DNA of 64,000 nt from Chloranthus sessilifolius (taxonomy: Eukaryota > Streptophyta > Magnoliopsida > Chloranthales > Chloranthaceae), in assembly GCA_021018995.1 (NCBI GenBank), contig CM037588.1, forward strand, positions 86,587,765-86,651,764, read 5' to 3'. Of this stretch, positions 7,124 to 50,648 are shown piece by piece (within the stretch, counting starts at the first letter, position 1; every line of letters starts with the position of its first letter). The position numbers were made by a program, and so were the translations under genes. The notes beneath the pieces are model-generated. The model was not told the DNA's origin. It was given only the letters and a program-made list of their open reading frames with translations, and ran no database searches.

Positions 7124-7129
7124 TCCACC

Positions 7130-9600: not shown

Positions 9601-12600
9601 ATTCACATTCAAGCGTGTTACTATCTATCAAGGATTCACGTTCAAGCATTCATGTTCAAGCATTCACGTTCAAGCATTCATGTTCAAGCTTTCACGTTCA
9701 AATATTTAGGTTCAAGCATTCCCGTTCAAGAATTCACGTTCAAGAATTCACACATTCAAGCATTCACGTTCAAGGGTGTAACAATCTATCAAGCATTCAC
9801 GTTCAAGCATGTCACTATCTATCAAGCATTCACGTTCAAGCATTTGTGTTCAAGCATTCACGTTCAAGTTTTCACGTTCAAGCAATCACGTTCAAGCATT
9901 CAGGTACAAGCATTCACGTTCAAGCAATCACGTTCAAGCATTCATATTTAAGCATTAACGTTCAAACATTCACGTGTAAGCTTTCATGTTCAAGCATTCA
10001 CGTTTAAGCATGCCACTATCTACCAAGTATTCACGTTCAGGCATTCACATTCAAGTATTCACGTTCAAGCATTCACGTTCAAGCCCTCACATTCGAGTAT
10101 TCAAGTTCTAGCAATCACATTCAAGAATTCAGGTACAAGAATTTATGTTCAAGCATTCACATTCCAGCATTCACGTTCTAGCAAGTAACTATCTATCAAA
10201 CATTCTTTTTTAAGCATTTAGGTTTAAGAATTCACATTCAAGTATTCATGTTCAAGCATTCATGTTCGATCATTCACGTTAGAGCATTCACGTTCAAGCA
10301 TTCAAGTTCAAGCATTCAGGTTCAAGAATTTAGCATTAAGCTTTCATGTTCAAGCATTCATGTTTGATCAGTCACGTTTGAGCATTCATGTTTCAACATT
10401 CACGTTCAAGAAATCACGCTCAAGCATTCACGGTCATGCATTCAAGTTCAAGCATTCACGTTCAAGCAATCACGTTCAAGCATTCATGGTCATGCATTCA
10501 GGTTCAAGCATTCAATTTCCAGCATTCACGTTCAAGCATTTCACTATCTCTCAAGCATTCATATTCAAACATTCAGGTTCAAGCATTCATGTGCAAGCAT
10601 TCACGTTCGAGCATTCACGTTCAAGCATTCGCGTTCAAGCATTCACATGTTCAAGCATTCACACGTACAATCATTCACGTTCAAGCGTGCCACTATCTGT
10701 CGAGCATCCATGTTCGAACATTCACATTCAAGCATTCATATTCAAGCATTCACGTTCAAGCATTCACACATTCAAGCATTCACGTTCAAGTGTGTCACTA
10801 TCTGTTGAGCATTCACGTTCAAGCCTTCATGTTCAAGTATTCATGTTCATGCATTCACCTTCAAGCATTAACGTGCAAGCAATCACGTCCAAGCATTCAC
10901 GTTGAAACATTCACATTTAAGCATTCACGTGCAAGTAGTCATGTTCAAGCATTCAAGTTTAAGCGTGTGACTATCTATCAAGCATTCACGTTCAAGCATT
11001 CATGTTTAAGCGTGTGACTATCTATCAAACATTCATGTTCAAGCATTCACGTTCAAGCATTCACGTTCAAACATTCAATCTATGCATTCACATTCAAGCA
11101 TTTACGTTCGAGCATGCCATTATCTATCAAGCATTCATGTTCAAGCATTCATGTTCGAGCATTCACATTTGAGCATTCAGGTTCATGTCACTATCTATCA
11201 AGCTTTCATTTTTAAGCATTCATGTTCAAGCATTCATGTTCGAGCATTCACGTTCGATCATTCACGATCAAGCATTCACGTTCAAAAATTCATGTTCAAG
11301 CATTCATTTTCAAGCAATCAGGTTCAAGCATTCATGTTCAAGCATTCATGTTCAAACATTCACGTTCAAGCATTCACATTCAAGCATTCATGTTCAATCA
11401 TTCCCGCTAAAGCGTGTCACTATAAATCTTGCATTCATGTTCAAGCATTCATTTTCAAGCATTCATGTTCAAGCAATCACGTTTAAGAATTCACATTCAA
11501 GCATTCATGTACAAGCATTCACGTTCAAGCGTGTCACTATCTATCAAGCATTCACGTTGAAGCATTCAGGTTAAAGCATTCATGTTCAAGCATTCATGTA
11601 CAAGCATTCACGTATAAGCATTCATGTTCAACCATTCACGTTCAAATATTTAAGTTTAGGCATTCACGTTCAAGAATTCACACGTTCAAGCATTCATGTT
11701 CAGGCCTTCATGTTCAAGCTTTCACGCTCAAATATTTAGGTTCAGGTTCAAGCATTCCTGTCCAAGAATTCACGTTCAAGAATTCACATGTTCAAGCATT
11801 CAAGTTCAAGCATTCACATTCAAGCATTCATGTTCAAGCGTGTGACTATCTATCAAGCATTCACGTTCAAGCATGTCACTATCTATAAAGCATTCACGTT
11901 CAAGCATTCACGTTCAAGCATTCCCATTCAAGAATTCAAGTTCAAGTATTCACGATCAAGCAATCACGTTAGAGCATGCAGGTACAAGCATTCACGTTCA
12001 AGCATTCATGTGAAAACTTTCATGTTCAAGCAATCACGTTGAAGCCTGTCACTATCTACTAAGCATTCACATTCAGGCATCCACGTTCTAGTATTCACGT
12101 TCAAGCCCTCACATTCAAGTATTCACATTCTAGCAATCACGTTCAAGAATTCAGTTACAAGAATTTACGTTCAAGCATTCACGTTCCAACATTCACGTTC
12201 AAGCATGTCACTATATCAAGCATTCATCTTCAAGCATTCACGTTCGAGCAATCATGTTCAAGCATTCATGTTCGATCATTCATGTTCGAGCATTCATGTT
12301 CAAGCATTCACGTTTTAGCAATCACGTTCAAACATTAAAGTTCAAGCATTCAGTTTAAGCATTCAACTTCAAGTTTCATGTTCAAGCATTCATGTTCGAT
12401 CATTCATGTTCGAGCATTCATGTTCAAGCATTCACGGTCCAGTAATCCCGTTCAAGCATTCAGGTTCAGGCATTTACGTTTAAGCATTCACGTTCAAGCA
12501 ATCACATTCAAACATTCACGGTCATGCATTCAGGTTCAAGCATTCAATTTCAATCTTTCACATTCAAGCATTTCATTATCTCTCAAGCATTCATTTTCAA

Positions 12601-14037
12601 GCATTCATGTTCAAGCATTCAGGTTTAAGCATTCACGTTCCAGCATTCATGTTCAAGCATTCATGTAGGAGCATTCACGTTCGAGCATTCACCTTCGGGC
12701 ATTCATGTTCTAGTATTCACGTTCAAGCATTCACGTTCAAGCGTGTCACTATCTATCGAGCATTCATGTTCAAGCATTCACACGTTTAAGCATTCTCATT
12801 CAAGTGTGTCACTATCTGTCAAGCATTCATGTTCAAGTATTCATGTTCAAGTATTCACATTCAAGCATTCAAGTTCAAGCAATCACGTCCAAGTATTCAC
12901 ATTAAAGCATTCACGCTCAAGCATTATGTGCAAGCAGCCATGTTGAAGCATTCAAGTTTAAGCGTGTGACTATCTATCAAACATTCACATTTAAGCGTGT
13001 GACTATCTATCAAGCATTCACGTTCAAGCATCCATGTTCAAGCATACACGTTCAAGCATTCATCTTGGAGCATTCATGTTCAAGCATTCGTGTTCAAGCA
13101 ATCACGTTCAAGCATTCAGGTTCAAGCATTCAATTTAAGCATTCACATTCAAGCATTTACATTCGAGCATGTCACTATCTATCAAGCATTCATGTTCAAG
13201 CATTCACATTCAAGCATTCATGATCAAGCATTCAAGTTCGAGCATTCAAGTTCATGTCACTATCTTTCAAGCATTCATTTTCAAGCATTCATGTTCAAAC
13301 ATTCTTGTTCAAGCATTCATGTTCAACCATTCATGTTCGATCATTCACGATCAAGCATTGACATTTAAGCATTCATGTTCAATCATTCATTTTCAAGCAA
13401 TCAGGTTCAAGTATTCATGTTCAAGCATTCACGTTCAATCATTCACATTCAAGCATTCATGTTCCAACATTTAGGTTCAAGCATTCCTGTTAAAGCGTGT
13501 CACTATAAATCTTGCATTCACGTTCAAACATTCATTTTCAAGCATTCACGTTCAAGAAGTCATGTTCAAGAATTCATGTTAAAGCATTCACGTTCAAGCG
13601 TATCACTATCTATCAAGCATTCACGTTGAAGCATTCAGGTTAAAACATTCACGTTCAAGCTTTCATGTACTGACATTCACGTACAAGCATGCATGTTCAA
13701 ATATTTAAGTTTAGGCATTAACATTTAAGAATTCACACGTTCAAGCATTCAAGTTAAAGCATTCATGTTCAAGCATTCATGTAGAAATATTCAAGTTTAA
13801 GCATTCCCGTTCAAGAATTCACACGTTCAAGCATTCACGTTCAATCATTCTCGTTTAAGCGTGTAACTATCTATCAAGCATTCACTTTTATGCATGTCAG
13901 TAACTATCAAGCATTCTCGTTCATGCCTATATGTTCAAGCATTCACGTTCAAGAATTCACGATCAAGAAATCATGTTCAAGCATTCAGGTACAAGCATTC
14001 ACGACCAAGCATTCACGTTCAAGCATTCACGTTCAAG

Positions 14038-14103
14038 CATTCACGTTTATGTGTGTCACTATCTACCAAGCATTCACGTTTATGTGTGTCACTATCTACC
14101 AAG
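14038..14103 (+). repeat. Exact 33-bp tandem duplication (14+19 module pair)
   Basis: The pair CATTCACGTTTATG plus TGTGTCACTATCTACCAAG occurs twice without a difference (14038-14070 and 14071-14103). It shows one 14-mer plus one 19-mer being copied as a unit. Confidence 0.95.
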
Positions 14104-17100: not shown

Positions 17101-17707
17101 CATTCACGTTCAAGCATTCATGTTCAAGTATTCATGCTCAAGCAATCACATTCAAGCATTCACGTTCAAGCATTCACGTTCAAGCATTTATGTTCAATCA
17201 TTGACGTGCAAGGAGTCCTGTTGAAGCATTCATGTTTAAGCGTGTGACTATCTATCAAACATTCATGTTCAAGCATTCACGTTTAAGCGTGTGACTATCT
17301 ATCAAGCATTCACGTTCAAGCATCCATGTTAACATATTTACGTTCAAGCATTCATTTCATGCAATAACATTCAAGCATTCAGGTTCAAGCATTCAATTTC
17401 AAGCATTCATGTTCAAGCATTCACGTTCAAGCATTCACATTCAAGCATTCACGTTTAAGCGTGTAACTATCTATGAAGCATTCACGTTCAAGTATGTCAC
17501 TATCTATCAAACAGTCACGTTAAGGCATTCATGTTTAAGCATTCTCGTTCAAGCATTCACGTACAAGAATTAACGTTCAAGCATTCACGCTCAAGTATTC
17601 AAGGTCAAGCAATCACGCACAAGCATTCTGGTACAAGCATTGACGTTCAAGCATTGACATTCTCGCAATCACGTTCAAGCATTCACGTGCAAGCATTCAT
17701 GTTCAAG

Positions 17708-17773
17708 CATTCACGTTAAAGCGCATCACTATCTATCAAGCATTCACGTTAAAGCGCATCACTATCTATCAAG
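17708..17773 (+). repeat. Exact 33-bp tandem duplication (14+19 module pair)
   Basis: CATTCACGTTAAAG plus CGCATCACTATCTATCAAG is repeated exactly (17708-17740 and 17741-17773). The variant CGCATC is rare elsewhere, so this is a young local event. Confidence 0.95.
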
Positions 17774-29700: not shown

Positions 29701-32053
29701 TCAAGCATTCATATTTAAGTATTCACGTTCAAGCATTCATGTTCAAGCTTTCATGTTCAAATATTCAGGTTCAACCTTTCCCGTTCAAGATCCAGGTATA
29801 AGAATTTACGTTCTAGCATTCACGTTCAAGCATGTCACTAGCTATCAAGCCTTCATTTTCAAGCATTCACGTTCAAGCATTCATGTTAACGCATTCACAT
29901 TCTAGCAATCACGTTCAAGCATTCAAGTTCAAGAATTCAGGTTCAAGCATTCAGCATCAAGCTTTCATGTTCGATCTTTCACGTTTGAGCATTCATGTTC
30001 AAGCATTCACGTTTCAGCAATCACGTTCAAGCATTCCGGTTCAAGCATTCAGGTTCAAACATTCAGGTTCAAGCATTCACGTTCCAGAATTCGCGTTCAA
30101 ACATTCAGTTCAAGCATTAACGGTCATGCATTCAGGTTCAAGCATTCAATTTCAAGCATTCACGTTCAAGCATTTTACTATCTCTCAAGCATCCATTTTC
30201 AAGCATTCTTGTACAAACATTCAGGTTCAAGCATCCACATTCAAGCATTGATGTTCAAGCATTCATGGATGAGCATTCACGTTCGAGCATTCACATTCGA
30301 GCATTCATGTTCAAACATTCATGTTCAATCATTCACACATTCAATCATTCACGTTCAAGCGTGTCACTATCTGTCGAGCATTCACGTTCAAACATTTATG
30401 TTCAAGCATTCACGTTCAAGCGTGTCATTATATGTCGAGCATTCACGTTCAAGCATTCATGTTCAAGTATTTATGTTCAAGCATTCACATTCAAGAATTC
30501 ACGTTCAAGCAATCACGTCCAAGAATTCACACTGAAGCATTCACGTTCTAGCATTCATGTGCAAGCAATCATGTTCAAGCATTCAATTTTAAGAGTGTGA
30601 CTATTTATCAAGCATTCACATTTAAGCGTGTGACTGTCTATCAAGCATTCTCGTTCAAGCATTCACGTACAAACATTCACGTTCAATCATTCATGTTCTA
30701 GCAATCACGTTCAAGCATTCATGTTCTAGCAATCACGTTCAAGCATTCAGGTTCAAGCTTTCAATTTAAGTATTCACATTCAGGCATTTACCTTCGAGCA
30801 TGTCACTATCTATCAAACATTCATGTTTGAGCATTCATTTTCAAGCATTCATGGTCAAGCATTCATGTTTGAGCATTCATGTTCAAGCATTCACGTTCGA
30901 TCATTCATGTTCAAGCATTCTTATTCAAGCATTCATTTTCAAGCAATCAGGTTCAAGCATTTACGCTCAATCATTCACGTTCAAGCATTCATGTTCATGC
31001 ATTCACGTTCTAGCATTCATGTTCAAGCATTCACGTTCTAGGAATCACGTTCATGTATTCAGGTTCAAGCATTCATGTTGAAGCAATCACGTTCAAGGAT
31101 TCATGTTTAAGCATTCAATTTCAAGCAATTCACTATCTCTCAAGCATTCATTTTCAAGCATTCATGTTCAAGCATTCAGGTTTAAGCATTCATGCTCGAG
31201 CATCTTATTCGAGCATTCACGTTAGAGCATTCACGTACGAGCATCCATGTTCAAGCATTCACGTTCAAGCATTCACACGTACAAGCATTCGCGTTCAAGC
31301 GTGTCACTATCTGTCCAGCATTCACGTTCAAGCATTCATGTTCAAGTATTCATGTTCAAGCATTCACATTCAAGCATTCATGTTCAAGCAATCACGTCCA
31401 ATCATTCACGTTCAAGCATTCACATTCAATCATTCACGTGTAAGGAGTCCTGTTCAAGCATTCACGTTTAAGCGTGTGACTATCTATAAAACATTGATGT
31501 TCAAGCAATCGCAAGTAAGCAGTCATGTTCAAGTATTCACGTTTAAGCTTGTGACTATCCATCAAGCATTCACGTTCAAACGTCCATGTTCAAGTATTTA
31601 CGTTCAAGCATTCACGTTCAAGCATTCATGTTCATGCAATCATGTTCAAGCATTCAGGTTCAAGCATTCAATTTCAAGTATTCACGTTCAAACATTAACA
31701 TTCAAGCATGTCACTATCTATCAAACATTCATGTTTAAGAATTCACGTTCAAGCATTCATGTTAAAACATTCTTGTTTGAGCATTCATGTTCATGTCACT
31801 ATCTATCAAGCATTCATTTTCAAGCATTCAAGTTCAAGCATTCATGTTTAAGCATTCATGTTCGACCATTCACGATCAGGCATTCACGTTCAAGCTTTCA
31901 TGTTCATGCATTCATGTTCAAGCATTCATGTTCAAGCATTGACGTTCAAGCATTCACATTCAAGCATTCATGTTCCAACATTCATGTTCAAGCATTCATG
32001 TTAAAGCGTGTCAGTATCAATCTAGCATTCACGTTCAAGCATTCATTTTCAAG

Positions 32054-32203
32054 CATTCACGTTCAAGAATTCGCGTTCAAGCATTCATGTTAAAGCATTC
32101 ACGTTCAAGCATGTCACTATCTGTCAAGCATTCACGTTCAAGAATTCGCGTTCAAGCATTCATGTTAAAGCATTCACGTTCAAGCATGTCACTATCTGTC
32201 AAG
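32054..32203 (+). repeat. Exact 75-bp tandem duplication (4x14 + 19)
   Basis: Four 14-mers followed by CATGTCACTATCTGTCAAG are present twice in succession (32054-32128 and 32129-32203) without a difference. The unit includes the unusual AATTCGCGTTCAAG variant. Confidence 0.95.
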
Positions 32204-32399
32204 CATTCACGTTCAAGCATTCGTGTTCAAGCATTCACGTTCAAACATTCATGTTCAAGTGTTCATGTTCATGCAATCACGTTCAAGCCCTCATGTGCAA
32301 GCATTCATGTTCAGGCATTCACATTTAAACATTTAAGTTTAAGAATTTACATTCTAGCAATCATGTTCAAGCATTCACGTTCTATCAAGCATTCATGTT

Positions 32400-35300
32400 C
32401 AAGCATTCCCATTCGAGTGTTCGTGTTCAAGCTTTCATGTTCAAGCAGATCTCTATCTGTCAAGCGTTCACATTCAAGCATTCATCAAGTAATCATGCTC
32501 ACACATTCTTGTTTAGGCTTTCACGTTCCATCACTCACATTCAAGCCGTCACGTTCAAGCATTCAGGTTCAAGCATTCACAGTCAAGCATTCCGGTTCAT
32601 GCATTGAGGTTCAAGCATTCACGTTCAAGCATTCATGTGCAAGCATTCACATTTTAGCATTCATGTTAACGCATTCATGCTCTTGCATTCCCGTTCAAGC
32701 ATTCAAGTTCTATCATGCACGTTCAAGCATTTCACTATCTTTCAAGCATTCAAGTTCAAGCATTCATGTTCAAGTATTCACGTTCAGGCATTCACGTCAA
32801 ATTGTGTGACTATCAATCAAGTGATCACATTCAAGCATTCACGTTCAAGCATTGTTTAAGCATTAATGTTCAAGCAATCAGGTTCATGCAATCACGTTCC
32901 AGCATTCATGTTCAAGTATTCACGTTCGGGCATTCACGTTAATGAGTGTCACTATCAATCAATCACTCACGTTCAAGCATGTCACTTTGAAGCTTGTCAC
33001 TATCAATCAAGCATTCACGTTCAAACATTCTTGTTCAAACATTCACGTTCAAGCAATCAGGTTCATGCAATCACATTCTAGCATTCATGTTCAAGCATTC
33101 ACGTTCAGGGATTCACGTTAAAGCATGTCACTATCGATCAAGCATTCACGTTCGAGCACTCACGTTCAAGCATTCATGTTTAAGCATTCACGTTCAAGCA
33201 ATCAGGTTCATGCAGTCACGTTCTAGCATTCATGTTCAAGCATTCACGTTCAGGCATTCACGTTACAGTGTGTCACTATCAATCAAGCATTCACGTTCAA
33301 GCATTCATGTTCAAGCATTAACGTATAAGCAATCAGGTTCATGCAATCACGTGCTAGCATTCATGTTCAAGCATTCCTATTTGGGCATTCACATTAAAGC
33401 GTGTCACTATCAATCAAGCATTCACATTCAAGCATGTCACTATCAATCAAGCATTCACGTTCAAGTATGTCACTACCGATCAAGCTTTCACGTTCAAGCA
33501 TTCATGTTCAAGCATTCATGTTTAAGCATTCAAATTCAAGAATTCACTTTCAAGCATTCAAGTTCAACCATTTACGTTGAAGCATTCACGTTCTCTCAAG
33601 CCTTCATGTTCAAGCATGTCACTTTAAAGCGTGTCACTATCAATCAAGCATTCGCATTCAAGCATTCATGTTCAAGCATTCAAGCTTACGTATTTATATT
33701 GAAGCATTCATGTTCTATCAAGCATTCATGTTCAAACATTCACGTTTAGGCATTCATATTCAAGAATTGAAGATCAAGCTTTTGCGTTCAAGCATTCAGG
33801 TTCAGGCATTCATGTTCGAGCATTCACGTTCAAGCATTTGTGTTAAAGCATTGACGTTCAAGCATTCACACGTCCAAGTTTTCTTTTTCAAGCATTCACG
33901 TTCAAGCATGTAAATTTCAGTCAAGATTTCACGTTCAAGCATTCATGTTCACATATTCATGTTCGAGCAATCACATTCTTGCATTCACATTCAAGCATTC
34001 ACGTTCGAGCATTCAGGTTCAAGCATTCACGTTCAAGCATTCACATTACAACATTCATGTTCATGCATGCACATTCTAGCATTCAAGTTCATGCATTAAC
34101 GTTCAAGCGTTCAGGTTCAAGCATTCAAGTTCTAGTAGTCACGTTCGAGCATTTATGTTCAAGCATTCACGTTCGAGCATGTAGGTTCAAATATTCACGT
34201 TCAAGCATTTAGGTTCAAGCATTCATTTTCAAGCATTCACGTTCAACCATTCATATTCTAGGATTCATGTTCAAGCATTCACATTCAAGCATTCATGTTC
34301 AAGCATTCACGTTCAAGCATGTCACTATCTGTCAAGCATTCACATTCAAGAATTCCTGTTCAGGTATTCATGTTCAAGCTTTCACGTTCAAGCATGTCAC
34401 GTTCTGTCAAGCATTCACGTTCAAGCCTTCACTTTCAAGCATTCACACTAACGCAATCACATTCAAGCTAAAGCAATCTCATTCAAGCATTCATGTTCAA
34501 GCATTCACATTCAAAGCATACGCCTGCTGCTAGCGTTCAAGCATTCTTATTCAAGCATTCACGTTCAAGCTTTCACGTTGCAGCATGTCACTATCAATCA
34601 AGCATTCATCTTCAAGTATTCACCTTCAAGTATTCATGTTCAAACATTCACGTTCAACATTCACATTCAGGCCTTCATGTTCAAGCATTCACGTTAAAGA
34701 ATTCATGTTCAGGAATTCACGTTCGACCGTTCACATTCTAGAGTTCACATTCAAGCATTCACATTCGAGCATTCAGGTTCAAGCATTTACATTCAAGCAT
34801 TCACGTTCAAGTATTTCCGTTCAAGCATTCATGTTCAAGCATTAAATTTCAAGCATTCACGTTCGAGCGTTCAGGTTCAAGCCTTCAAATTCTAGGATTC
34901 ACGTTCATACATTCTAGTTCCAACATTCACATTCAAGCATTCATGTTCAAGCATTCACGTTCAAGCATTTAGGTTACAACATTTACATTCAAGCATTTAG
35001 GTTCAAGTGTTCACATCGAAACATTCATATTCTAGAATTCATGTTCCAGCATTCACGTTAAAGAATTCATGTTCTTGTATTCACTTTCAAGCATTCACGC
35101 TCTAACAATCGCATTCAGGCATTCACGTTCGAGCATTCATGTTCAAGCAGTCACGTTCCAACATTCACGCTCTAGCATTCATGTTCAAGCATTCACGTAT
35201 AAGGATTTAGGTTCAAACATTCATGTTTTAGCATTTAGGTTCAAGCTTTTCCGTTCAGGCATTCTAATTCAAGAATTCACGTTCAAGCATTCTTGTTCAA

Positions 35301-38300
35301 GCATTTACGTTCAATCACTCAAGTTCAAGAATTTACACTCTAGCATTCATTTTCAAGCATTCATGTTCTATCAAGCATTCACGCTCGAGCATTCCCATTC
35401 GAGCATTCATGTTCAAGCATTCACATTCAAGCAGGTCACTATCTGTCAAGCATTAACGTTCAAGCATTCATCTTCAGGTAATCATGTTCACGCATTCACG
35501 TTCCAGCATTCAGTTTCAAGCATTCAGGGTCAAGCATCCGGTTCAAGCATTCAGGTTCAAGCATTCAGGTTCAAGCATTCATGTTCAAGTATTCACGTTC
35601 TAGCATTCCCGTTCAAGAATTCCTGTTCTAGCATTCCCGTTCAAGCATTTCACTATCTGTCAAGCATTCACATTCAAGCGTTCAAGTTCAAGGATTCGCG
35701 TTCAGGCATTCATGTCAAAGAGTGTCACTATCAATCAAGCGTTCATGTTCAAACATTCACGTTCAAGCATTCATGTTCAAGCATTCACGTTCAAGCAATC
35801 AGGTTCATGAAATCATGTTCTAGCATTCATGTTCAAGCATTCACGTTCAGGCATTCATGTTAGAGAATTCATGTTCTAGCATTCACGTTCAAGCATTTCA
35901 ATATCTGTCAAGCATTCATGTTCAAGCAATCAGGTTCATGCAATCACATTCTAGCATTCATGTTCAAGCATTCACGTTCAAGTATTCATGTTCTAACATT
36001 CACATTCAAGCATTCGAGTTCAAGCCTTCACATTCAAGCATTCATGTCCAAGCATTCACGTTAAAGAATTCATGTTCGAGCATTCAGGTTCAAGCATTCA
36101 CGTTCAAGCATTCATGTCCAAGCATTCACATTCAAGTGTTCATGTTTAACCATTCAAGTTCCAACATTCACATTCAAGCATTCTTGTGCGAGTATTCACG
36201 TTGAATCGATCACAATTGAGCATTCATTTTCAAGCATTCCCGTTCAGCTTTTAGGTTAAAACATTCACGTTCAAGCATTTTGGTTCAAGTATTCATATTC
36301 AAGCATTCACGTTCAAGCATTCATATTCTAGCATTCATGTTCAAGCATTCACGTTAAAGAATTCATGTTCAAGCATTCACGTTCTAGCATTCACATTCAA
36401 GCATTCACGTTCTAGCATTCACTTCAAGCATTGAAGTTCGAGCATTCCCGTTCAAGAGTTAACGTTCCAGCATTCACGTTCTTGCATTCATGTTCAAGCA
36501 TTCACGCTCGAGCATTTTGGTTCAAACATTCATGTTCTAGCATTTAGGTTAAGCATTCACGTTCAAGCATTCATGTTCAGGCATTCACATTTAATCATTT
36601 AAGTTTAAGAATTTACATTCTAGCAATCATGTTCAAGCATTCATGTTCTATCAAGCATTCATGTTTGAGCATTCATGTTCGAGCATTCCCATTCGAGCAT
36701 TCGTGCTCAAGCATTTACGTACAAGCGGGTCTCTATCTATCAAGTATTCACATTCAAGAATTCATCAAGTAATCATGTTCAAGCTTTCACGTACCATCAC
36801 TCACGTTCAAGCCGTCAGATTCAAGCATTCACAGTCAAGCATTCAGGTTCATGCATTAAGGTTCAAGCATTCACATTCAAGCATTCATGTTCAAGCATTC
36901 ATATGCAAGAATTCACATTTTAGCATTCATGTTAATGCATTCACGTTCTAACATTCCCGTTCAAGCATTCAAGTTCTATCATACATGTTCAAGCATTTCT
37001 CTATCTGTCAAGCATTCAAGTTCAAGCATTGATGTTCAAGTATTCACGATCGAGCATTCACATTCAAGCATTCACGTTCGGGCATTCAGGTTCAAGCATT
37101 CCCATTCAAGCATTCACGATCAAGCATTCAAGTTCAAGCATTGATGTTCAAGCGTTCAGGTTCAAGCATTCAAGTTCCGGCATTCATTTTCAAACAATAA
37201 AGTTCATGCAATCACGTTCTAGCATTCATGTTCAGGCAATGACGTTTAATCATTCATGTTCAAGAATTTACATTCTAGCATTCATGTTCATGCATTCATG
37301 TTCTATCAAGCATTCATGTTCAAGCATTGATGTTCGAGCATTGACCTTCGAGCATTCCCATATGAGCATTCGAGTTCAAGCATTCACGTTCAAGCGGGTC
37401 CTTATCTTTCAAGCAGTCACGTTTAAGCATTCATCTTCAAGAAATCATGTTCACGCATTCACGTTCAAGCATTCACATTCCACAATTCACATTTTAGCAA
37501 TCACCTTCAAGCATTCAGGTTTCAGCATTCCGATTCAAGCATTCACGTTCTAGCATTGGAGGTCAAGCATTCATGTTCAAGCATTCATGTTCAGGCATTC
37601 ACGTCAAAGTGTGTCATTATCAATCAAGCGTTCAAGTTCGAGCACTCACGTTCAAGCATTCATGTTCAAGCATTCACGTTCAAGCAATCAGGTTCATGCA
37701 GTCATGTTCTAGCATTCTTGTCCAAGCATTCACGTTCAGGCATTCACGTTAAAGTGTGCCACTATCGATCAAGCATTCACGTTCAAGCATTTTACTTTGA
37801 AGCATGTCACTATCAATCAAGCATTCACATTCAAGCATTCATGTTCAAGCATTAACGTTTATGTAATCAGGTTCATGCAATCATGTGCTAGCATTCATGT
37901 TCAAGCATTCTCGTTCAGGCATCCACGTTAAAGCGTGCCACTATCAATCATGCATTCACGTTCAAGCATGTCACTTTAAAGCGTGTCACTATCAATCAAG
38001 CATTCACGTTCAAATATGTCACTACCTATCAAGCATTCAAGTTCACGAATTCACTTTCAAGCATTCATGTTCTATCAAGCCTTCATGTTCAAGCCAGTCA
38101 CTTTAAAGTATGTCAATATCAATCAAGCATTCATGTTCAAGAATTCATGTTCAAGCATTCACATTCAGGCATTCACGTCAAAGAGTGTCACTATTAATCA
38201 AGAGCTACCATTCAAGCATTCATGTTCAATCATTCACATTCAAGCAATTAGGTTCATGCAATTACATTTAGCATTCATGTTCAAGCAATCAAGTTCATGC

Positions 38301-38600
38301 AATCATGTTTAACATTCATGTTCAAGCATTTACGTTCAGGCATTCATGTTAAAGCGTATCACTATAAATCAAGCATTCACGTTCAAGCATGTCGCTTTAA
38401 AGCTTGTCACTATCAATCAAGCATTCACATTCAAGTATGTCACTACCTATCAAGCTTCCACGTTCAGGCATTCATGTTCAAGCATTCACGTTCAAGCATT
38501 CATGTTCAAGCATTCAAATTAAAGCATTTACGTTGAAGCATTCGCATTTTATCAAGCATTCATGTTCAAGCATTCACGTTTATGCATTAATGTTCAACAT
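32400..38600 (+). repeat. Array transition section, mostly 14-mers
   Basis: From about 32.4 kb new module types appear: CTATCAATCAAG 19-mers, CAATCAGGTTCATG 14-mers, and a 15-bp CATGTCACTTTAAAG-type spacer (first near 32985). Between about 33.9 and 36.6 kb, 19-bp modules become rare and 14-mers dominate, with many TTCTAG-ending variants. A short stretch at 34513-34534 (containing ACGCCTGCTGCTAGC) does not fit either module. No gene is seen. Confidence 0.7.
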
Positions 38601-41600
38601 TCAGGTTCAACCATTCATGTTCAAGCATTCACGTTCGAGCTTGCACGTTTGAGCATTTGTGTTAAAGCATTGACGTTCAAGCATTCACACATCCAAGCTT
38701 TCTTTTTTAAACATTCACGTTCAAGCATGTCAATTTCAGTCAAGAATTCATGTTCAAGCATTCATGTTCAAGTATTCATGTTAAAGCATTCACATTCTTG
38801 CATTCACATTCAAGCATTCACGTTCGAGCATTCAGGTCCAAGCATTCCCATTCAAGCATTAACATTCAAGCATTCACGTTCAATCATTCAAGTTCAGGCA
38901 TTGACGTTCAAGCATTCAGGTTCAAGCATTCAAGTTCCAGCATTCACGTTTGAGCATTCATGTTCACGCATTCACGTTTGAGCATTTAGGTTTAAACATT
39001 CACGTTCAAGCATTTAGGATCAAGCATTCATATTCATGCATTCACGTTCAACCATTCATATTCTAGGATTCATGTCCAAGTATTCACGTTCAAGCATCAC
39101 GTTCAAGCATTCCCGTTCAAGCATTCGCATTCAAGAATGTCACTATCTGTCGAGCATTCACGTTCAAGCATTCATGTTTAGGTATTCATGTCTAAGGTTT
39201 CACGTTCAAGCGTGTCACTATCTAAATCATTCATGTTTAGCGTGCCACCATGTTCAAGCATTCACATTCAAGTATTCATGTTCAAACATTCATGTTCAAG
39301 CATTCACATTCAAGCATTCACATTCAAGCCTTCATGTTTAAGCATTCACGTTAAAGAATTCATGTTCCAGCATTCACGTTCTAGCATTGACATTAAAGCA
39401 TTCTTGTTCGAGCATTCAGGTTCAAGCATTCACATTCAAGCATTCCCGTTATGACATTCACGCTCAAGTATTCTCGTTCAAGCATTCACATTGAGCATTC
39501 AATTTGAAGCATTAACGTTCAAGCGTTCAGGTTCAAGCATTCAAATTCCAACATTCACGTTCAAGCATTGTTATTTCACGTTGAAGCATTCACGTTCAAG
39601 CATTCATGTTCAAGCGTTCACATTCAAGCATTTTGGTTCAAACATTCCCGTTCAAGCAATCATGTTCAGGCATTCCTGCTCAAGCATTCAAGTGAAAGCA
39701 TTCATGTTCAAGCATTCAAGTTAAAGCATTTACATTGAAGCATTCACGTTCTATCAAGCATTCATGTTCAAGCATTCACGTTTAAGCATTCATGTTCAAG
39801 AATTGCAGATCAACTTTTCACTTTCAAGTATTCAAGTTCAAGCATTCATGTTCGAGCATTCACGCTTAAGCATTCACATTTGAGCATTTGTGTTAAAGCA
39901 TTGACGTTCAAGCATTCACATGTCCAAGCTATCTTTTTTAAGCATTCACGTTCAAGCGTGTCAATTTCAGTCAAGAATTCACGTTCAAGCATTCATGTTC
40001 AAGTATTCATGTTCAAGCATTCACATTCTTGCATTCACATTCAAGCATTCACGTTCGGGCATTCAGGCTCAAGCATTCACGTTCAAGCATTCAAGTTCAA
40101 GCATTGATGTTCAATCATTCAGGTTCAAGCATTCAAGTTCCAACAATCACGTTCAAGCATTCATGTTCAAGCATTCACGTTCAAGCATTTAGGTTCAAAC
40201 ATTCACGTTCAATCATTCATGTTCAAGAATTTACATTCTTGCATTCATGTTCATGCATTCACGTTCTACTAAGCATTCATGTTCAAGAATTCATGTTCGA
40301 GCATTGACCTTCTAGCATTTCCATTCGAGCATTTGTGTTCATGCATTCACGCTCAAGCGGGTCCCTATCTTTCAAGCAGTCACGTTCAAGCATTCATCTT
40401 CAAGAAATCATGTTCATGCATTCTCGTTCAAGCATTCACGTTCAAGCAGTCACGTTCAAGCATTCAAGTTCCAGCATTCATGGTCAAGTATTCTGGTTCA
40501 GGCATTCAGGTTCAAGCATTCACGTTCAAGCATTCATGTTCAGTCATTCATATGTAAGCATTCATGTCCTAGCATTCATGTTCAAGCATTCACGTTCTAG
40601 CATTAGCTTTCAAGCATTCATGTTCTAGCATTCACATTCAAGCGATTCACTATCTATTAAGCCTTCATGTTCAAGCATTCATGTTCAAGCATTCACGTTC
40701 AGGCATTCACGTCAAAGCGTGTCACTATCAATCAAGTGTTCACGTTTGAGCACTCACGTTCAAGCATTCATGTTCAAGCATTCACGTTCAAGCAATCAGG
40801 TTCAGGCAGTCACGTTCTAGCATTCTTGTTCAAGCATTCACGTTTAAGCATTCATGTTAAAGCGTGTCACTATCAATCAAGCATTCACATTCAAACATGT
40901 CACTTTAAAGAGTGTCAGTATCAATCGAGCATTCACATTCAAGCATTAGCGTTTAAGCAATCAGGTTCATGCAATCACGTGCTAGCATTCATGTTCAAGC
41001 ATTCCCGTTCAGGCATTCACATTAAAGCGTGTCACTATCAATCAAGAATTCAAGTGCAAGCATGACTCTTTAAAGCGTGTCACTATCAATCAAGCATTGA
41101 CGTTCAAGTATGTCACTACCTATCAAGCTTTCACATTCAAGCATTTGTGTTCAAGCATTCATGTTCAAGCATTCACATTCAAGCATTCAAGTTCAAGAAT
41201 TCACTTTCAAGCATTCAAGTTCAACCATTTACGTTGAAGCATTCACGTTCTATCAAGCTTTCATGTTCAAGCATGTCACTTTAAAGAGTGACACTAGCAA
41301 TCAAGCATTCACGTTCCAGCATTCATGTTCAAGCATTCATGTTCAGGCATTCACATCAAAGAGTGTCACTATCAATCAAGCGCTAACATTCAAGCATTCA
41401 CGTTCAAGCAATCAAGTTCATGCAATCACGTTTAGCATTCATGTTCAACCATTCACGTTCAGGCATTCATGTTAAAGCATATCACTATCAATTAAGAATT
41501 CATGTTCAAACATGTCGCTTTAAAGTTTGTCACTATCAATCAAGCATTAACGTTCAAGTATGTCACTACCTATCAACCTCTCACTTTCAAGCATTCATGT

Positions 41601-44018
41601 TCAAGCATTCCTGTTCAAGCATTCATGTTCAAGCATTCCTGTTCAAGCATTCAAGCATTCAAGTTACAACATTTGCGTTGAAGCATTCACGTTCTATCTA
41701 GCATTAATGTTCAAGCATTCACGTTTAAGCATTCATGTTCAAGAATTCAAGATCAACCTTTCGCATTCAAGCATTCAAGTCCAAGCATTCATGTTCGAGC
41801 ATTCACACTCGAGCATTCATGATTGAGCATTTGTGTTAAAGCATTGACGTTCAAGCATTCACACGTCCAGGCTTTTTTTTTTAAGCATTCACTTTCAAGC
41901 GTGTCAATTTTAGTCCCGAATTCACGTTCAAGCATTCATGTTCAAGTATTCATGTTCGAGCATTCACATTCTTGCATTCACAATCAAGCATTCACGTTCG
42001 GGCATTTAGGTTCAAGCATTCCCATTCAAGCATTCACGTTCAAGCATTCAAGTTCAAGCGTTGATGTTCAAACATTCAGGTTCAAGCATTCAAGTTCCAG
42101 CATTCTTTTCAAATAATCAGGTTCATGCAATCACATTCTAGCATTCATGTTCAGGCATTCACGTACAATATTCATGTTCAAGAATTTACATTCTAGCATT
42201 CATGTTCATGCATTCACGTTCGATCAATCATTCATGTTTAAGCATTCATGTTCGAGCATTGACCTTCGAGCATTCCCATTCAAGCATTTGTGTTCAAGCA
42301 TTCACGTTCAAGCGGATCCCTATCTTTCAAGTAGTCACATTTAAGCATTCATCTTCAAGAAATCATGTTCATGCATTCACGTTCAAGCATTCATGTCCCA
42401 CAACTCACGTTCAAGCAGTCACATTCAAGCATTCACGCTCAAGCATTCCGATTCAAGCATTCAGGTTAAAGCATTCATGTTCAAGCATTCACGTTCAAGC
42501 ATTCATGTTCAAGCATTCACGTTCTAGCATTCATGTTCAAGCATTCACGTTCTAGCATTGGCATTCAAGCTTTCATGTTCTAGTGTTCACATTCAAGTGA
42601 TTCACTATCTGTCAAGAATTCACGTTCAAGCATTCATGTTCAAGCATTCACGTTCAGGAATTCATGTCAAAGTGTGTCACTATCAATCAAGCGTCCATGT
42701 TTGAGCACTCACGTTCAAGTATTCATGTTCAAGCATTCACGTTCAAGCAATCAGGTTCATGCAGTCACGTTCTAGCATTCATGTTCAAGCATTCACGTTC
42801 AGGCATTCACGTTAAAGCGCGTCACTATCAATCAAGCATTCACGTTCAAGCATGTCACTTTAAAGCGTGCCACTATCAATCAAGCATTCATATTCAAGCA
42901 TTAGCGTTTAAGCAATCAGGTTCATGCAATCACGTGTTACCATTCATCAAGCATTCCCATTCAGGCATTCACGTTAAAGCGTGTCACTATCAATCAAGCA
43001 TGTCACTTCAAAGCGTGTCACTATCAATCAAGCATTCACGTTCAAGTATGTCACTACCTATCAAGCTTTCATGTTCAAACATTCATGTTTGAGCATTCAC
43101 ATTCAAGCATTCAAGTTCAAGAAATCACTTTCAAGCATTGAAGTTCAGCCATTTACGTTGAAGCATTCACATTCTATCAAGCCTTCATGTTCAAGAATGA
43201 CACTTTCAAGCGTGTCACTATCAATTAAGCATTCACGTTCAAGCATTCATGTACGAGCATTCACGTCAAAGAGTGTCACTAACAATCAAGCATTCACGTT
43301 CAATCATTCATGTTCAAGAATTCAAGTTCAAGCAATCAGGTTCATGCAATCACGTTTAGCATTCATGTTCAAGAAATCAGGTTCATGCAATCACGTTTAG
43401 TATTCATGTTCAAGCATTCACATTTAGGCATTCATGTTAAAGCGTATCACTATCAATCAGGCATTCACGTTCAAGCATGTCGCTTTAAAGCTTGTCACTA
43501 TCAATCAAACAATCACGTTCAAGTATGTCATTACCTATCAAGCTTTCACTTTCAAGCATTCATGTTCAAGCATTCACATTCAAGCATTTAAGTTAAAGCA
43601 TTCATGTTCTAGCATTCAAGTTAAAGCATTTACATTGAAGCATTCACGTTCTATCAAGCATTCATGTTCAAACATTCACGTTTAAGCATTCATGTTCAAG
43701 AATTGAAGATCAACCTTCCACGTTCAAGCATTCAAGTTCAAGCATTCATGTTCGAGCATTCATGTTCGAGCATTCACGTTTGAGCATTTGTGTTAAAGCA
43801 TTGACGTTCAAGCATTCACACGTCCAAGCTTTCTTTTTTAAGCATTCACGTTCAAGCGTGTCAATTTTAGTCAAGAATTCACGTTCAAGCATTCATGTTC
43901 AAGTATTCATGTTCGAGCATAAACATTCTTGCATTCACATTCGGGCATTCAGGTTCAAGCATTCCCATTCAAGCATTCACGTTCAAGCATTCAAGTTCAA
44001 GCGTTGATGTTTAAGCAT

Positions 44019-45395
44019 TGAACGTGAATCCGTTGAATGCTAGGCATTGTTCATGAACGATTGTTTTGAAAAGAATGCCATCAACATCAATTTGAAATTG
44101 AATGCAACTTGAATGGTTGAGCGTGAATGCTTGAACATTCATGTGAATGCTTGAATGTTCAAATGAATCTCACATGAATCAACATGAATTAGCGTGATTC
44201 TTGACTAAAATTCAAGCATTCATGCTTATTCGTCAAATGCTTCATCATTCTTTAACACATGCTCAAGCGTGAATTCAAGCATTGTTCCATGTGCTTGAAC
44301 TTGAATCTTGAACATGAAAGGTTGATCTTCATTCTTGAACATGAATGCTTAAGCGTGATTCTTGAAGCATTCATGAACGTGAATGCTTCAAGCATCATTC
44401 AATCAAGCATGCTTTCATGCATTGAATGCTTCATTAGTGAAAACATTGTTCCACGTCAAGCATTCACTTGATGATGACAAACTTTAAGCATGCATGCAAG
44501 CATTGATAACATGAATGCACGAACATGAATGCTTGAACATGAATGCTAAATGTGATGCATGAACATTTCAACATTGAATGCTAAGTGATTCATGAACATC
44601 ATTTTGAATCAACATGAATGATTGAGCGTGAATGCATGTTAGCATTGATAGTGTTACTCTTTCGTGAATCACCGTGAATGATTCAACTTTCGTTAATGCA
44701 TTCATGACGCGCTTTAAAATTCAACGTTGAAGCGAAAGAATTGAATTTCAATGTAATGAACTTGATCAAGTGAATTCTTGAACATTCATGTTCACATGAA
44801 TGCTTAAATGTAGCTTGATTTGACATACTTGAGCGTGAATGCTTGATTGATAGTGACATTCGTGAATTGATTGATAGTGACGCTTTAGCGTGAATCTGAA
44901 TGCTTGAACATGAATTCAACGTGATTCATGAACACATTCTTAAACACGTCAACATGAATGCTTGAATGTAGCTTGATTGATAGTGACATGCTTCATGAAT
45001 GCTTGAACGTTTTAAGCGTTCATCTTTGTTCAATGTGAATGTTTGAACATTCAATGCTTGAATGTGAGCATTTCAATGTGAGCGGCATTGATAGTGACAT
45101 TTGATGTGAATGCAAGCGTATGCTGAACGTGCTTCGTGAATGCATTGCATCTTGAATGTGAATGCTCATTAATGCATTGAATTAATGCTAGAATGAATTC
45201 TTGAACATGAATGCATTGAACGTTCAACTTGAATGCATGTTGACCGCTCTTGAACGCTCTGAATATTATCTAGCACGTGCGTGAACATGTTCTTGAAGAT
45301 GAATGCTTCGCTTCAAAGATAACCGGCAATGATGAACACATCAATAATGCTCAAGTCAATTCAACATGAATGCTTGAACATGAATTTAAGCAATA
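44019..45395 (-). repeat. Inverted and heavily eroded higher-order unit inside the array
   Basis: Here the modules run on the minus strand (GAATGCTTGAACATGAATGC and similar), with irregular spacing and many short gaps. Its reverse complement shows the section-B landmarks in the correct order: a CGGTTATCTTTGAAGC-like version of the CGGGTCCC box (near 45320), CACTATCAATCAAGC (near 44870 and 44985), GAAGATCAACCTTTC (near 44315), ATTTTAGTCAAGAATC (near 44205), and a TTTTCAAAACAATC block (near 44085). The distance from first to fourth landmark is about 1115 bp, against about 1556 bp in the neighbouring forward unit. A minus-strand open frame at 44683-44919 encodes the same SLSIKHSRSS-type peptide as the forward array, confirming the inversion. 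Confidence 0.85.
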
Positions 45396-47294
45396 ACGAA
45401 TTCACGTTCAAGCATTCATGTTAAAGCATTCACGTTCAGGCATTCACATCAAAGCATGGCCTATTAATCAAGCATTCACATTTGAGCACTCACATTCAAG
45501 CATTCAAGTTTAAGCATTCACGTTCAAGCATTTAGGTTCATGCAGTCACGTTCTAGCATTCTTGTTCAAGCATTCACGTTAAAGCGTGTCACTATTAATC
45601 AAGCATTCACGTTCAAGCATGTCACTTTAAAGCATGTCACTATCAATCAAGCATTCACATTCAAGCATTCATGTTCAAGCATTAGCATTTAAGTAATCAG
45701 GTTCATGCAATCACATGCTAGCATTCATGTTCAAGCTTTCCCATTCAGGCATTCACGTTGAAGCATGTTACTATCAATCAAGCATGTCACTTTAAAACGT
45801 GTCACTATCAATCAAGCATTCACGTTCAAGTATGTCACTACCTATCAAGCTTTCACGTTCTAGCATTCATGTTTGAGCATTCACGTTCAAGCATTAACGT
45901 TCAAGCATTCAAGTTCAAGAATTCACTTTCAAGCATTCAAGTTCAACCATTTATGTTGAAGCATTCACGTTCTATCAAGCCTTCATGTTCAAGCATGTCA
46001 CTTCAAAGCGTGTCACTATCAATCAAGCATTCACGTTCAAGCATTCATGTTCAGGCATCCACGTCAAAGAGTGTCACTATCAATCAAGCACTAACATTCA
46101 GGCATTCACGTTCAATCATTCATGTTCATTCACGTTCAAGCAATCGGGTTCATGCAATAACATTTAGCATTCATGTTCAAGAAATCAGGTTCATGCAATC
46201 ATGTTTAGCATTCATGTTCAAGCATTCACGTTCAGGCATTAATGTTAAAGTGTATCACTATCAATCAGGAATTCACGTTCAAGCATGTCACTTTAAAGCT
46301 TGTCACTATCAATCAAGCTTTCACGTTCAAGTATGTCACTACCTATCAAGCTTTCACTTTCAAGCATTCCTGTTCAAGCATTCACATTCAAGCATTCAAG
46401 TTAAAGCATTCATGTTCAAGCGTTCAAGTTAAAGCATTTACGTTGAAGCATTCATGTTCAAGCGTTCAAGTTAAAGCGTTTACGTTGAAGCAGTCACGTT
46501 CTATCAAGCATTCATGTTCAAACATTCACATTTAACCATTCATGTTCAAGAATTGAAGATCAACCTTTCACATTCAAACATTCAAGTTCAAGCATTGATG
46601 TTCGACCATTCATGTTCGAGCATTCACGTTTGAGCATATGTGTTAAAGCATTGACGTTCAAGCATTCACACGTCCAAGCGTTCTTTTTTAAGCATTCACG
46701 TTCAAGTGTGTCAATTTTAGTCAAGAAATCACGTTCAAGCATTCATGTTCAAGTATTCATGTTTGAGCATTCACATTCTTGCATTCACATTCAAGCATTC
46801 ACATTCGGGCATTCAGGTTCAGTCATTCACGTTCAGGCATTCACGTTTTAGCATTCCAGTTCAAGCATTGATGTTCAAGCGTTCAGGTTCAAGCATTCCA
46901 GTTCCAGCATTCATTTGCAAACAATCAGGTTCATGCAATCACATTCAAGCATTCATGTTCAGACATTCACGATCAATCATTCATGTTCAAGAATTTACAT
47001 TCTAGCATTCATGTTCATGCATTCACGTTCTATCAAGCATTCATGTTCAAGCATTCATGTTCGAGTATTGACCTTTGAGCATTCCCATTCGAGCATTCGT
47101 GTTCAAGCATTCACGTTCAAGCGGGTCCCTATCTTGTAAGCAATTACATTCAAGCATTCATTTTCAAGAAATCATGTTCGCGCATTCACGTTCCACAATT
47201 CGCGTTCAAGCAGTCACGTTCAAGCATTCACGGTCTAGCATTCAGGTTTAAGCATTCAGGTTCAAGCATTCACGTTCAAGCATTCATGTTCAAG

Positions 47295-47528
47295 CATTCA
47301 CGTTCTAGCATTCATGTTCTAGCATTGGTGTTCAAGCATTCATGTTCTAGCATTCACATTCTAGCGATTCGCAATCTGTCTAGCATTCACGTTCAAGCAT
47401 TCACGTTCAAGCATTCATGTTCTAGCATTCATGTTCTAGCATTGGTGTTCAAGCATTCATGTTCTAGCATTCACATTCCAGCGATTCACAATCTGTCTAG
47501 CATTCACGTTCAAGCATTCATGTTCAAG
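47295..47528 (+). repeat. 117-bp tandem duplication (7x14 + 19)
   Basis: Two successive blocks (47295-47411 and 47412-47528) share the rare CATTGGTGTTCAAG 14-mer and a CGATTCGCAATCTGTCTAG-type 19-mer, with a handful of differences. It lies within the section-B higher-order repeat. Confidence 0.9.
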
Positions 47529-50500
47529 CATTCACGTTCAGGCATTCACGTCAAAGCGTGTCACTATCAATCAAGCGTTCACGTTCGAGCACTCACATTC
47601 AAGCATTCATGTTCAAGCATTCACATTCAAGCAATCAGGTTCATGCAGTCACATTCTAGAATTCATGTTCAAGCATAGACATTCAGACAGTCACATTAAA
47701 GCGTGTCACTATCAATCAAGCATTCACGTTCAAGCATGTCACTTTAAAGCGTGTCATTATCAATCAAGCATTCACATTCAAGCATTCATGTTCAAGCATT
47801 AACGTTTAAGTAATCAGGTTCATGCAATCACGTGCTATCATTCATGTTCAAGCATTCCCTTTTAGACATTCACGTTAAAGCGTGTCACTATCAATCAAGC
47901 ATTCATGTTCAAGCATGTCACTTTAAAGTGTGTCACTATCAATCAAGCATTCACGTTCAAGTATGTCACTACCTATCAAGCTTTCATGTTCAAGAATTCA
48001 TGTTCAAGCATTCACGTTCAAGCATTTACGTTCAAGCATTCAAGTTCAAGAATTCTCTTTCAAGCATTCAAGTTCAACCATTTACGTTGAAGCATTCACG
48101 TTCTATCAAGCCTTTATGTTCAATCATGACACTTTAAAGCGTATCACTAGCAATCAAGCATTCACGTTCCAGCATTCATGTTCAAGCATTCAGTTCAGGC
48201 ATTCACATCGAAGAGTGGCACTATCAATCAAGCACTAACATTCAAGCATTCACGTTCAATCATTCATATTCAAGCATTCACGTTCAAGCAATCAGGTTCT
48301 TGCAATCAAGCTTAGCATTCATGTTCAAGCAATCGGGTTCATTCAATCGCGTTTAGCATTCATGTTCAAGCATTCACATTCAGGAATTCATGTTAAAGAG
48401 TATCACTATCAATCAAGCATTCACGTTCTGTTCAAGCATTCATGTTCAAGCATTAAAGTTAAAGCATTTACATTGAAGCATTCATGTTCAAGCATTCACG
48501 TTTAAGCATTCATGTTCAAGAATTGAAGATCAACCTTTCACGTTCAAGCATTAAAGTTCAAGCATTCATGTTCGAGCATTCACGTTCGAGCATTCATGTT
48601 TGAGCATTTGTGTTAAAGCATTGACGTTCAAGCATTCACACATCCAAGCTTTCTGTTTTAGGCATTCACGTTCCAGTGTGTCAATTTTATTCAAGAATTC
48701 ACGTTCAAGCATTCATGTTCAAGTATTCATGTTCGAGCATTCACATTCTTGCATTCACATTCAGGCATTCATGTTCAAGCATTCCCATTCAAGCATTCAC
48801 GTTCAACCATTCAAGTTCAAGCATTGATGTTCAAGCATTCAAGTTCCAGCATTCAATTTCATACAATCAGGGTCATGGATTCATGTTCTAGCATTCATGT
48901 TCAGGCATTCACGTTCAATCATTCATGTTCAAGAATTTACATTCTAGCATTCACGTTCTATCAAGCATTCATGTTCGAGCATTGACCTTCGAGCATTCCC
49001 ATTCGAGCATTCGTGTTCAACCATTCACATTCAAGCGGGTCCCTATCTTTCAAGCAGTCACATTCAAGCATTCATCTTCAAGAAATCATGTTCACGCATT
49101 CATGTTCAAGCATTCACGTTCCACAATTCATGTTCAAGTAGTCACGTTCAAGCATTCATGGTCAAGCATTCACATTTAAGCATTCATGTTCAAGCATTCA
49201 TGTTCTAGCATTCATGTTCAAGCATTGGCATTCAAGCATTCATATTCTAGCATTCACATTCAAGCGATTCAGTATCTGTCAAGCATTCACGTTCAAACAT
49301 TCATGTTCAAGCATTCATGTTCAGGCATTCACGTCAAAGCTTGTCACTATCAATCAAGCGTTCACATTCAAGCATTCATATTCAAGCGTTTATGATCAAG
49401 CAATCAGGTTCATTCAGTCACTTTCTAGCATCCATGTTCAAGCATTCACGTTCAGGCATTCACGTTAAAGTGTGTCACTATCAATCTAGCATTCCCGTTC
49501 AAGCATGTCACTTTAAAGCATGTCACTATCAATCAAGCATTCACATTCAAGCATTCATGTTCAAGCATTAACGTTTAAGCAATCAGGTTCATACAATCAT
49601 GTGCTAGCATTCATGTTCAAGCATTCCCGTTCAGGCATTCACGTTAAAGCGTGGCACTATCAATCATGCATTCACATTCAAGCATGCCACTTTAAAGCAT
49701 GTCACTATCAATCAAGCATTCACATTCAAGTATGCCCCTACCTATCAAGCTTTCACATTCAAGCATTCATGTTCATCCATTCACGTTCAAGCATTCAAGT
49801 TCAAGAATTCACTTTCAAGCATTCAAGTTCAACCATTTACGTTGAAGCATTCATGTTCTATCAAGCCTTCATGTTCAAGCTTGCCACTTTAAAGCATGTC
49901 ACTATCAATCAAGCATTCATGTTCAAGCATTCACGTACAGGCTTTCACGTCAAAGAGTTTCACTATCAATCAAGCGCTAATTAGAAAAAGGGGTTGAAAG
50001 AAGAATTGAAATGGTTTGGTAAAATAAGCAGAAAAATAGAGAAGTAGGCTGTGAGGGGCTAAATTTTACTGCAAACAGCAATGTAAAATAGAGTAAGAGT
50101 TGGATCTACAACAATCCTTCATTTGGCTATAAGCATAAATACAAGGAAGAAGAATCCAACTCAACCCTAAGATATGGATTAGTCTTAGGGCTATAGCTTG
50201 TCCACTCAAATAGTCATAGGCTATCCCATGGATATAATCCAGTCATGGGGGTTAAAGATGAAATAATAAAATCACTGCAGACACTATGTTTGCAAGGCTA
50301 CAAGCTCATGCAGGTGCATAAAATCCAAAAACATCTAATGAAAATCACAAGAGATTACAAATTAAATGAAACATTAAAACCAGGTAGTCATTGCTAAAAA
50401 GAAACTTACAATGATACAACTCTCAAATTTACAGTCTCTGCAAGACTCCAAACTCTTCACAATGTTATTACAAAGCAGTCTACAATAAAACTAGCCCTAA

Positions 50501-50640
50501 CTACTACAAAGATTTAGCTAGACATGTTGAACTAAGGAGAGAAGAAGAATAACAAGGAAGATGACCTAAACCCTAAAAATATGACCTAAACTGCTGTGTT
50601 GTCTGGCGTGATCCCCCCTCATTCTACATTCTTTACATGG

Positions 50641-50648
50641 TATTTATA
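50641..50648 (-). promoter_or_regulatory. TATA box, minus strand, in LTR-like remnant
   Basis: TATTTATA on the plus strand reads TATAAATA on the minus strand. It is about 900 bp from the inferred LTR start at 51543, a reasonable U3/R position. Confidence 0.5.

Follow-up and report, generated by a model that had tools for sequence, protein, structure and literature searches.

An ordered satellite of 14- and 19-bp units dispersed through the Chloranthus sessilifolius genome

A 64-kb stretch of the Chloranthus sessilifolius genome, hereafter the window (contig C5, positions 86587765-86651764), contains a 40-kb tandem array in which a 14-bp unit is interspersed with a 19-bp unit. We found that this array is part of a real, ordered and genome-wide satellite family of a known type, the short-unit plant satellites. 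The most likely reading is that of an old heterochromatic family with an unusually short unit, which lies in gene-poor regions and has been broken up by insertions. We favour an old satellite cut by insertions because neighbouring pieces are mostly co-oriented and several array borders resemble the edges of retrotransposons.

Units of the array and their order

Tandem Repeats Finder (TRF), run on the window, reported a single array at 9628-49950 (period 14, 2787 copies, 69% matches, 8% indels, score 25174). We split the array into units by dynamic programming against the 14-mer, the 19-mer and a 15-mer over 9601-44000 and 45391-49980, leaving out a scrambled stretch at 44019-45390. This yielded 2,688 units (2,398 14-mers, 266 19-mers and 24 15-mers) at a cost of 0.15-0.16 edits per base, compared with 0.53 in 8,000 bases of shuffled array, and the last 19-mer-like unit stopped near 49975. 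The stretch is thus a long head-to-tail array of one unit, as expected of a satellite, and the sequence-only reading, which had placed an array of 14- and 19-bp modules at 9601-49980, was borne out from 9601 to about 49975. The window gave no Rfam match at the gathering score and no tRNA. A coding repeat was also considered, but the plus-strand open reading frames (ORFs) of up to 359 aa are explained by a 14-bp unit that is free of stops in all three frames, and the candidate was rejected on the sequence, without statistics.

The array is not uniform along its length. In its left part the core word TATCTATC occurred 59 times and ATCAATC 13 times, while the right part had 54 copies of ATCAATC and one of TATCTATC; the change is gradual, so that the boundary at 32000 is approximate. 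The 15-mer appears to have arisen late and locally, because 24 of the 35 copies in all stretches parsed sit in the window's right part.

Both modules occurred together in 23 stretches: eight on C5 (two of them the halves of the window), eight on C1, three on C14 and two each on C2 and C15. Across these stretches the 19-mers made up 2-11% of units; in one C15 stretch (L019) the four 19-mers were called by the parse alone, without either exact core word. Loci recruited by consensus words are biased towards the consensus, which does not apply to the window or to stretches L041 and L043.

The order of the 19-mers among the 14-mers was compared with that in unit shuffles. In the window, none of the 264 intervals between successive 19-mers joined direct neighbours, against 26.2 in the shuffles, and none of 1000 shuffles was as low. 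The spacings most in excess were 10 units (159 bp; 19 vs 9.0) and 11 units (173 bp; 26 vs 8.3), and a spacing of 5 units was under-represented (3 vs 15.7). The six other C5 stretches agreed, with adjacency of 1 vs 14.1 and with 14 vs 5.7 and 16 vs 5.1 at 10 and 11 units. Avoidance of adjacency was unclear, and the peak at 10-11 units absent, in the eight C1 stretches (4 vs 6.6) and in the seven C2, C14 and C15 stretches (1 vs 3.2).

The 14-mers around a 19-mer were also ordered. In each of the four groups of stretches, position 7 of the 14-mer directly before a 19-mer was C in 69-78% of cases, compared with 43-51% away from 19-mers (p = 7e-12, 8e-5, 4e-4 and 0.055, values that overstate the significance, since blocks that are copies of one another are not independent). 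Two units past the 19-mer, the share of T at this position was 0.62 in the window and 0.63 in the other C5 stretches, and 0.47 and 0.50 elsewhere. This base pattern indicates that 19-mers tend to move together with a phased set of neighbours. The sequence-only reading had described the alternation of the modules as irregular; the absence of adjacent 19-mers in the window, the enriched spacings of 10-11 units and the phased 14-mers contradict this. It had also proposed local duplications of 33, 75 and 117 bp. The first two agree with TRF rows and with modest enrichment of spacings of 1 unit (35 vs 24.0, with 13 of 1000 unit shuffles as high) and 4 units (25 vs 17.4, with 41 of 1000 as high). 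The third does not, the spacing of 7 units (117 bp) showing no excess in the window (12 vs 12.5), although 117 bp is nonetheless among the higher autocorrelation lags there.

For the window's left part and stretches L012-L014, L041 and L043, the largest excess of self-similarity over 15 unit shuffles between 60 and 420 bp lay at 145-173 bp (z 5.0-6.5), a lag that corresponds to 9-11 units plus one 19-mer. These lags were also present in L028, at a z of only about 2 and alongside 395-409 bp; the window's right part, the C1 stretches and those of C2, C14 and C15 had other leading lags. A nucleosome occupies a core of about 147 bp plus linker. The C5 period is close to this length, which may be an accident of block duplication.

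As for the origin of the 19-mer, the proposal that it is an expanded 14-mer received mixed evidence. The alignment of the two consensus sequences was matched by 356 of 20000 shuffles of the 14-mer (about 0.018), and it thus beats most shuffles; against this, the single-copy intermediate CACTATCAAG had no occurrence in the 23 stretches. We therefore regard the expansion as a weak suggestion.

Distribution in the genome and the nature of the family

The assembly comprises 2,168,743,587 bases in 32 contigs; among C1-C18 and C32, 15 contigs measure 96-199 Mb and the next 6 Mb. An exact two-unit word of the satellite had 271 places in the genome, its reversed control none, and three further module words had 42, 111 and 49 places, with no place for the controls; positions were taken from the first 100 of the 271 places and from 100 of the 111. 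Exact words lay on 13 of the 15 chromosome-sized contigs (C1, C2, C4-C9 and C11-C15), indicating that the satellite occupies many loci. None of the three further words fell on C3 or C10, where diverged copies may exist; the 42 and the 49 places were covered completely, and the 100 of the 111, taken in contig order, ran as far as C15. Clusters were few per chromosome (C2, 34.2-34.9 and 41.8 Mb; C5, 76.1, 85.0-86.6 and 89.6 Mb; C12, 39.3-40.6 Mb). Eight 10-kb slices of C5 at 85.0-86.4 Mb included three with satellite (12% of bases), and eleven slices at 77-84.5 and 86.8-87.0 Mb were devoid of it; L028, a slice chosen on a match, is left out of these counts. The total is some 2-5 Mb, or 0.1-0.25% of the genome, a very rough figure based on the 1-6 words counted over 49.6 kb.

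Of 151 pairs of neighbouring places at distances of 3-300 kb, 124 agreed in strand, against 55% expected, a value reached by none of 5000 permutations. In the main C5 cluster 43 places were on the minus strand and two on the plus strand. Both plus places belong to the window's own array, which is therefore inverted relative to its C5 neighbours.

We used kinase-domain matches as a stand-in for genes (133 matches, from 130 of 2608 candidates scored, in 75 one-Mb bins). Only 2 of the 75 bins lay within 10 Mb of a satellite cluster, compared with 13.1 expected; within 5 Mb the count was 1 vs 7.8, and within 15 Mb 6 vs 17.7. Chromodomains (PF00385) were tried as a centromere marker and set aside, since the 150 matches scored of 23,753 candidates were on all 15 chromosome-sized contigs, also far from the clusters.

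Four young copies of a repeat of about 1.95 kb, listed in Table 1, were 89-90% identical pairwise, with gap columns (152-244 per pair) not counted; the preceding stretch at 37700-39657 matched them at 73-74%, the background level. In the left part, 400-bp pieces matched others about 2.03-2.08 kb away at 78-87% by edit distance. Copies were detected by an infix-distance scan, because self-BLAST mostly shows background of 72-74%. Among three young copies, CG sites changed from C to T at 19 of 186 positions (10%) and from G to A at 17 of 186 (9%), compared with about 3% at other C and G. This roughly threefold faster variation is as expected for methylated DNA, and methylation would be one explanation of it. 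Gene avoidance and this change at CpG are what was observed on heterochromatic location, and the satellite is probably ordinary heterochromatic repeat DNA.

Several observations weigh against this reading. The clusters on C14 are the most spread, over 59-98 Mb (59-60, 79.5-80, 84.4-84.6 and 97.7 Mb), those on C6, C7 and C9 have relative contig positions of 0.74, 0.82-0.85 and 0.18, and those on C1, C14 and C15 contain both orientations. One kinase match is as close as 2 Mb to the main C5 cluster, and the kinase set draws on just 130 of 2608 candidates. The 145-173 bp period and the non-adjacency of 19-mers are clear on C5 only. The C/T difference at position 7 is partly linked to phase, and that part is therefore inherited and not simple decay.

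We weighed four other explanations. That these arrays are a working centromeric satellite, with CENH3 nucleosomes on them as on the Chio satellites of Chionographis, is unlikely. The few clusters per chromosome, the avoidance of genes and, in the 20 slices taken from C5 at 76-87 Mb, the lack of any other tandem array longer than some 0.6 kb would suit it, and the available parts of two papers describe very short centromeric units in plants (PMC10264360, PMC5895790). Against it stand the small amount of satellite and its interruption by other sequence, the absence of the three exact words from C3 and C10 among the matches listed (functional centromeric satellites commonly, if not universally, occupy every chromosome), the distance between clusters on C8 and on C14, and the lack of a significant dyad. 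An isolated single-locus minisatellite, the case that the sequence-only reading had named as refuting its own, has next to no probability left: the ATCAATC form does predominate in just two places, the window's right part and, on small numbers (6 vs 4), L017, and a 37-bp word of this form has two places in the genome, but for the family as a whole the module words on 13 of 15 chromosome-sized contigs refute it, as the sequence-only reading had supposed in calling the array a satellite.

It is very unlikely that a transposable element carries the array and spreads it. Array borders do touch repeats, and some of the 21 examined recur: L041 and L043 share an apparent long terminal repeat (LTR) end; L020, L024 and L026 share a border; and L007 and L008, which overlap at one locus, resemble L003 by eye. 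Non-satellite sequence beginning TGTGACA, a start typical of LTRs, lies at or near a border in L018 and L043. However, most borders differ, so that no one element flanks most loci, and the border word shared on C1 has three places in the genome, all at C1 111-113 Mb, and hence reflects a local duplication; the orientation of the places is also shared across distances of more than 1 Mb. Since most borders differ, the arrays were hardly carried by one element, and insertion into existing arrays fits better. That large parts of the array are assembly artefacts is scarcely credible. The stretch at 44019-45390 is scrambled at fine scale, and a 43-base word taken from it has no second place in the genome within 3 mismatches, yet the remaining array parses at an even cost and its copies show graded divergence.

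Features of the window and a proposed history

Table 1. Features of the window (positions from its first base)
Feature	Position	Strand	Remarks
Left part of array	9601-32000	+	14-mer CATTCAYGTTCAAG and 19-mer with TATCTATC; super-period about 145-173 bp
Right part of array	32001-49975	+	mostly 19-mers with ATCAATC, 15-mer CATGTCACTTTAAAG; younger higher-order repeats
Higher-order repeat, about 1.95 kb	39658-49970	+	copies 39658-41600, 41601-43556, 46408-48376, 48377-49970
Scrambled, mostly inverted satellite words; many indels, orientation switches	44019-45390	-	split cost, infix scan
Left flank: decayed retrotransposon	2036-9600	-	integrase core 3372-3788 (minus strand); 69-82% to other copies
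Right flank: other dispersed repeats	49976-64000		includes plant-mobile-domain-like ORF 60126-60719

The third higher-order copy lacks about 476 bp, whose place is taken by the scrambled stretch, as judged from the difference of lengths. The split cost of this stretch was 0.40 per base on the reverse strand and 0.38 when both strands were allowed, with 34 orientation switches; control array had none, and shuffled sequence and flank had 46 and 38 at a cost of 0.50-0.52. A DNA-similarity search for further copies was uninformative, as 39 of 1377 candidates were scored and the stretch's own place was not among the matches listed. The stretch is a genuine rearrangement or else an error in the consensus.

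The element in the left flank, which we read as a Ty3-type retrotransposon, resembles copies in four C5 slices (L029, L033, L036 and L037). The array starts inside it, where the matching copies in L029 and L036 continue uninterrupted; at E 1e-10 the right flank held nothing that matches their continuation. The mobile-domain-like ORF of the right flank matched PF10536 at 32.1 bits, below the cut-off of 34.9, and a 'putative plant transposon protein' family was assigned to 3 of 45 ORFs. Near-palindromes like GGCGTATATAATATATACGCC form short tandem repeats at 1340-1422, 56420-56550 and 62386-62594, which look like small inverted-repeat elements; that at 62386 has a 47-bp period and 4.4 copies by TRF, with related pieces near 59 kb. 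The right flank also holds a perfect (AT)26 run at 54445-54496. Two C5 slices carry a 24-bp tandem repeat, TGGCCCAAACCTACCAAGGCCCAT (L036:2-449, L045:350-701), with a reverse-complement-like form in L045.

Elsewhere in the genome a spacing near 7.05 kb recurred, with 11 of 81 pairs 1-12 kb apart falling at 7000-7249 (from 100 of the 271 places), and spacings of about 5.5 kb on C15 and 35.5 kb on C7 were also seen; block sizes therefore vary by locus. Satellite words at C7:123351796, 123387462 and 123422934, which are 35.5-35.7 kb apart, point to a large tandem duplication.

From these patterns a history can be proposed. The 14-bp unit would have expanded into long arrays through slippage and unequal exchange. 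The 19-bp unit would have arisen before the family spread, because the arrays sampled on five chromosomes contain both modules. Larger blocks may then have been copied by unequal exchange or gene conversion, leaving the phased surroundings of the 19-mers, the C5 period, the 1.95-kb copies and the spacings of about 7 kb that we observed. Retrotransposons and other insertions would later have cut the long one-direction arrays, as the borders suggest beside the observed orientation and gene avoidance, and change was fastest at CG sites, presumably through methylation. The satellite most likely encodes no product, and any role would be that of bulk pericentromeric heterochromatin, a placement we infer from clustering and gene avoidance only.

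There is a small chance that the family is a present or former centromeric satellite of this 15-chromosome plant, with a 14-bp unit shorter than the described plant centromeric units that we found and with nucleosome phasing brought about by unit variants. If so, 19-mers every 10-11 units would rebuild a period of about 159-173 bp on C5, and selection or homogenisation would have fitted a tiny unit to the phasing of nucleosomes. Two unit lengths, their phasing and the ages of copies can be read from one assembly, which would allow a test for nucleosome-length periods made from tiny units, and the same family would allow one to test whether such arrays are old centromeres dismantled by retrotransposons. 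Very short satellite units are easily overlooked: the available part of a large survey of centromere repeats states that units below 50 bp were omitted in its pipeline for Sanger and PacBio reads (PMC4053949).

Comparison with described short-unit satellites

No described 14-bp plant satellite matching this one was found in the open-licence literature. The strings CATTCACGTTCAAG and GAACGTGAATGCTTG were likewise absent from the 5.39 million open-licence papers covered, a result of little weight, since consensus sequences are frequently given in figures or supplements instead. A 20-bp repeat of Astragalus sinicus, attributed to Tek et al. 2011, is reportedly part of functional centromeres. It is likewise a very short plant tandem unit, called functional-centromeric there, whereas for the array described here such a role is only a candidate one.

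The closest described parallel, likened by description, appears to be Chio1 and Chio2 of Chionographis japonica. According to the portion of the paper available, these units of 23 and 28 bp differ by a 5-bp deletion and one substitution and are intermingled; they are CENH3-bound, their cluster makes up 16% of the genome in Mb-sized units, and their dyads are predicted to form hairpins (PMC10264360). The 14-mer and 19-mer are similar in that two very short variants about 5 bp apart are intermingled and form higher-order repeats. Unlike Chio as described there, the satellite here is scarce and fragmented, with no significant hairpin or covariation: folding of three consensus strings gave z of -0.96, -1.77 and -1.15, and 95 of 496 stems were full, compared with 96.4 in shuffles, so that no Chio-type dyad was found. 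For the junction of 14-mer and 19-mer (CACG-TTCAAG-CGTG), a role as a hairpin or dyad was rejected on the same grounds.

For Vicia faba, the available text describes three centromeric satellites of 44-50 bp and VfSat2 of about 26 bp (PMC5895790); these are also short-unit satellites, some of them linked to centromeres, with units longer than 14 bp. The Chama satellite of Chamaelirium luteum is described, in the part of the paper available, as a 60-bp, CENH3-bound, dyad-rich repeat that is not interspersed with retrotransposons (PMC12722358). In that freedom from retrotransposons, its CENH3 binding and its wealth of dyads, Chama as described differs from the array reported here, and the two are alike in keeping one orientation, and in forming higher-order repeats, across long distances.

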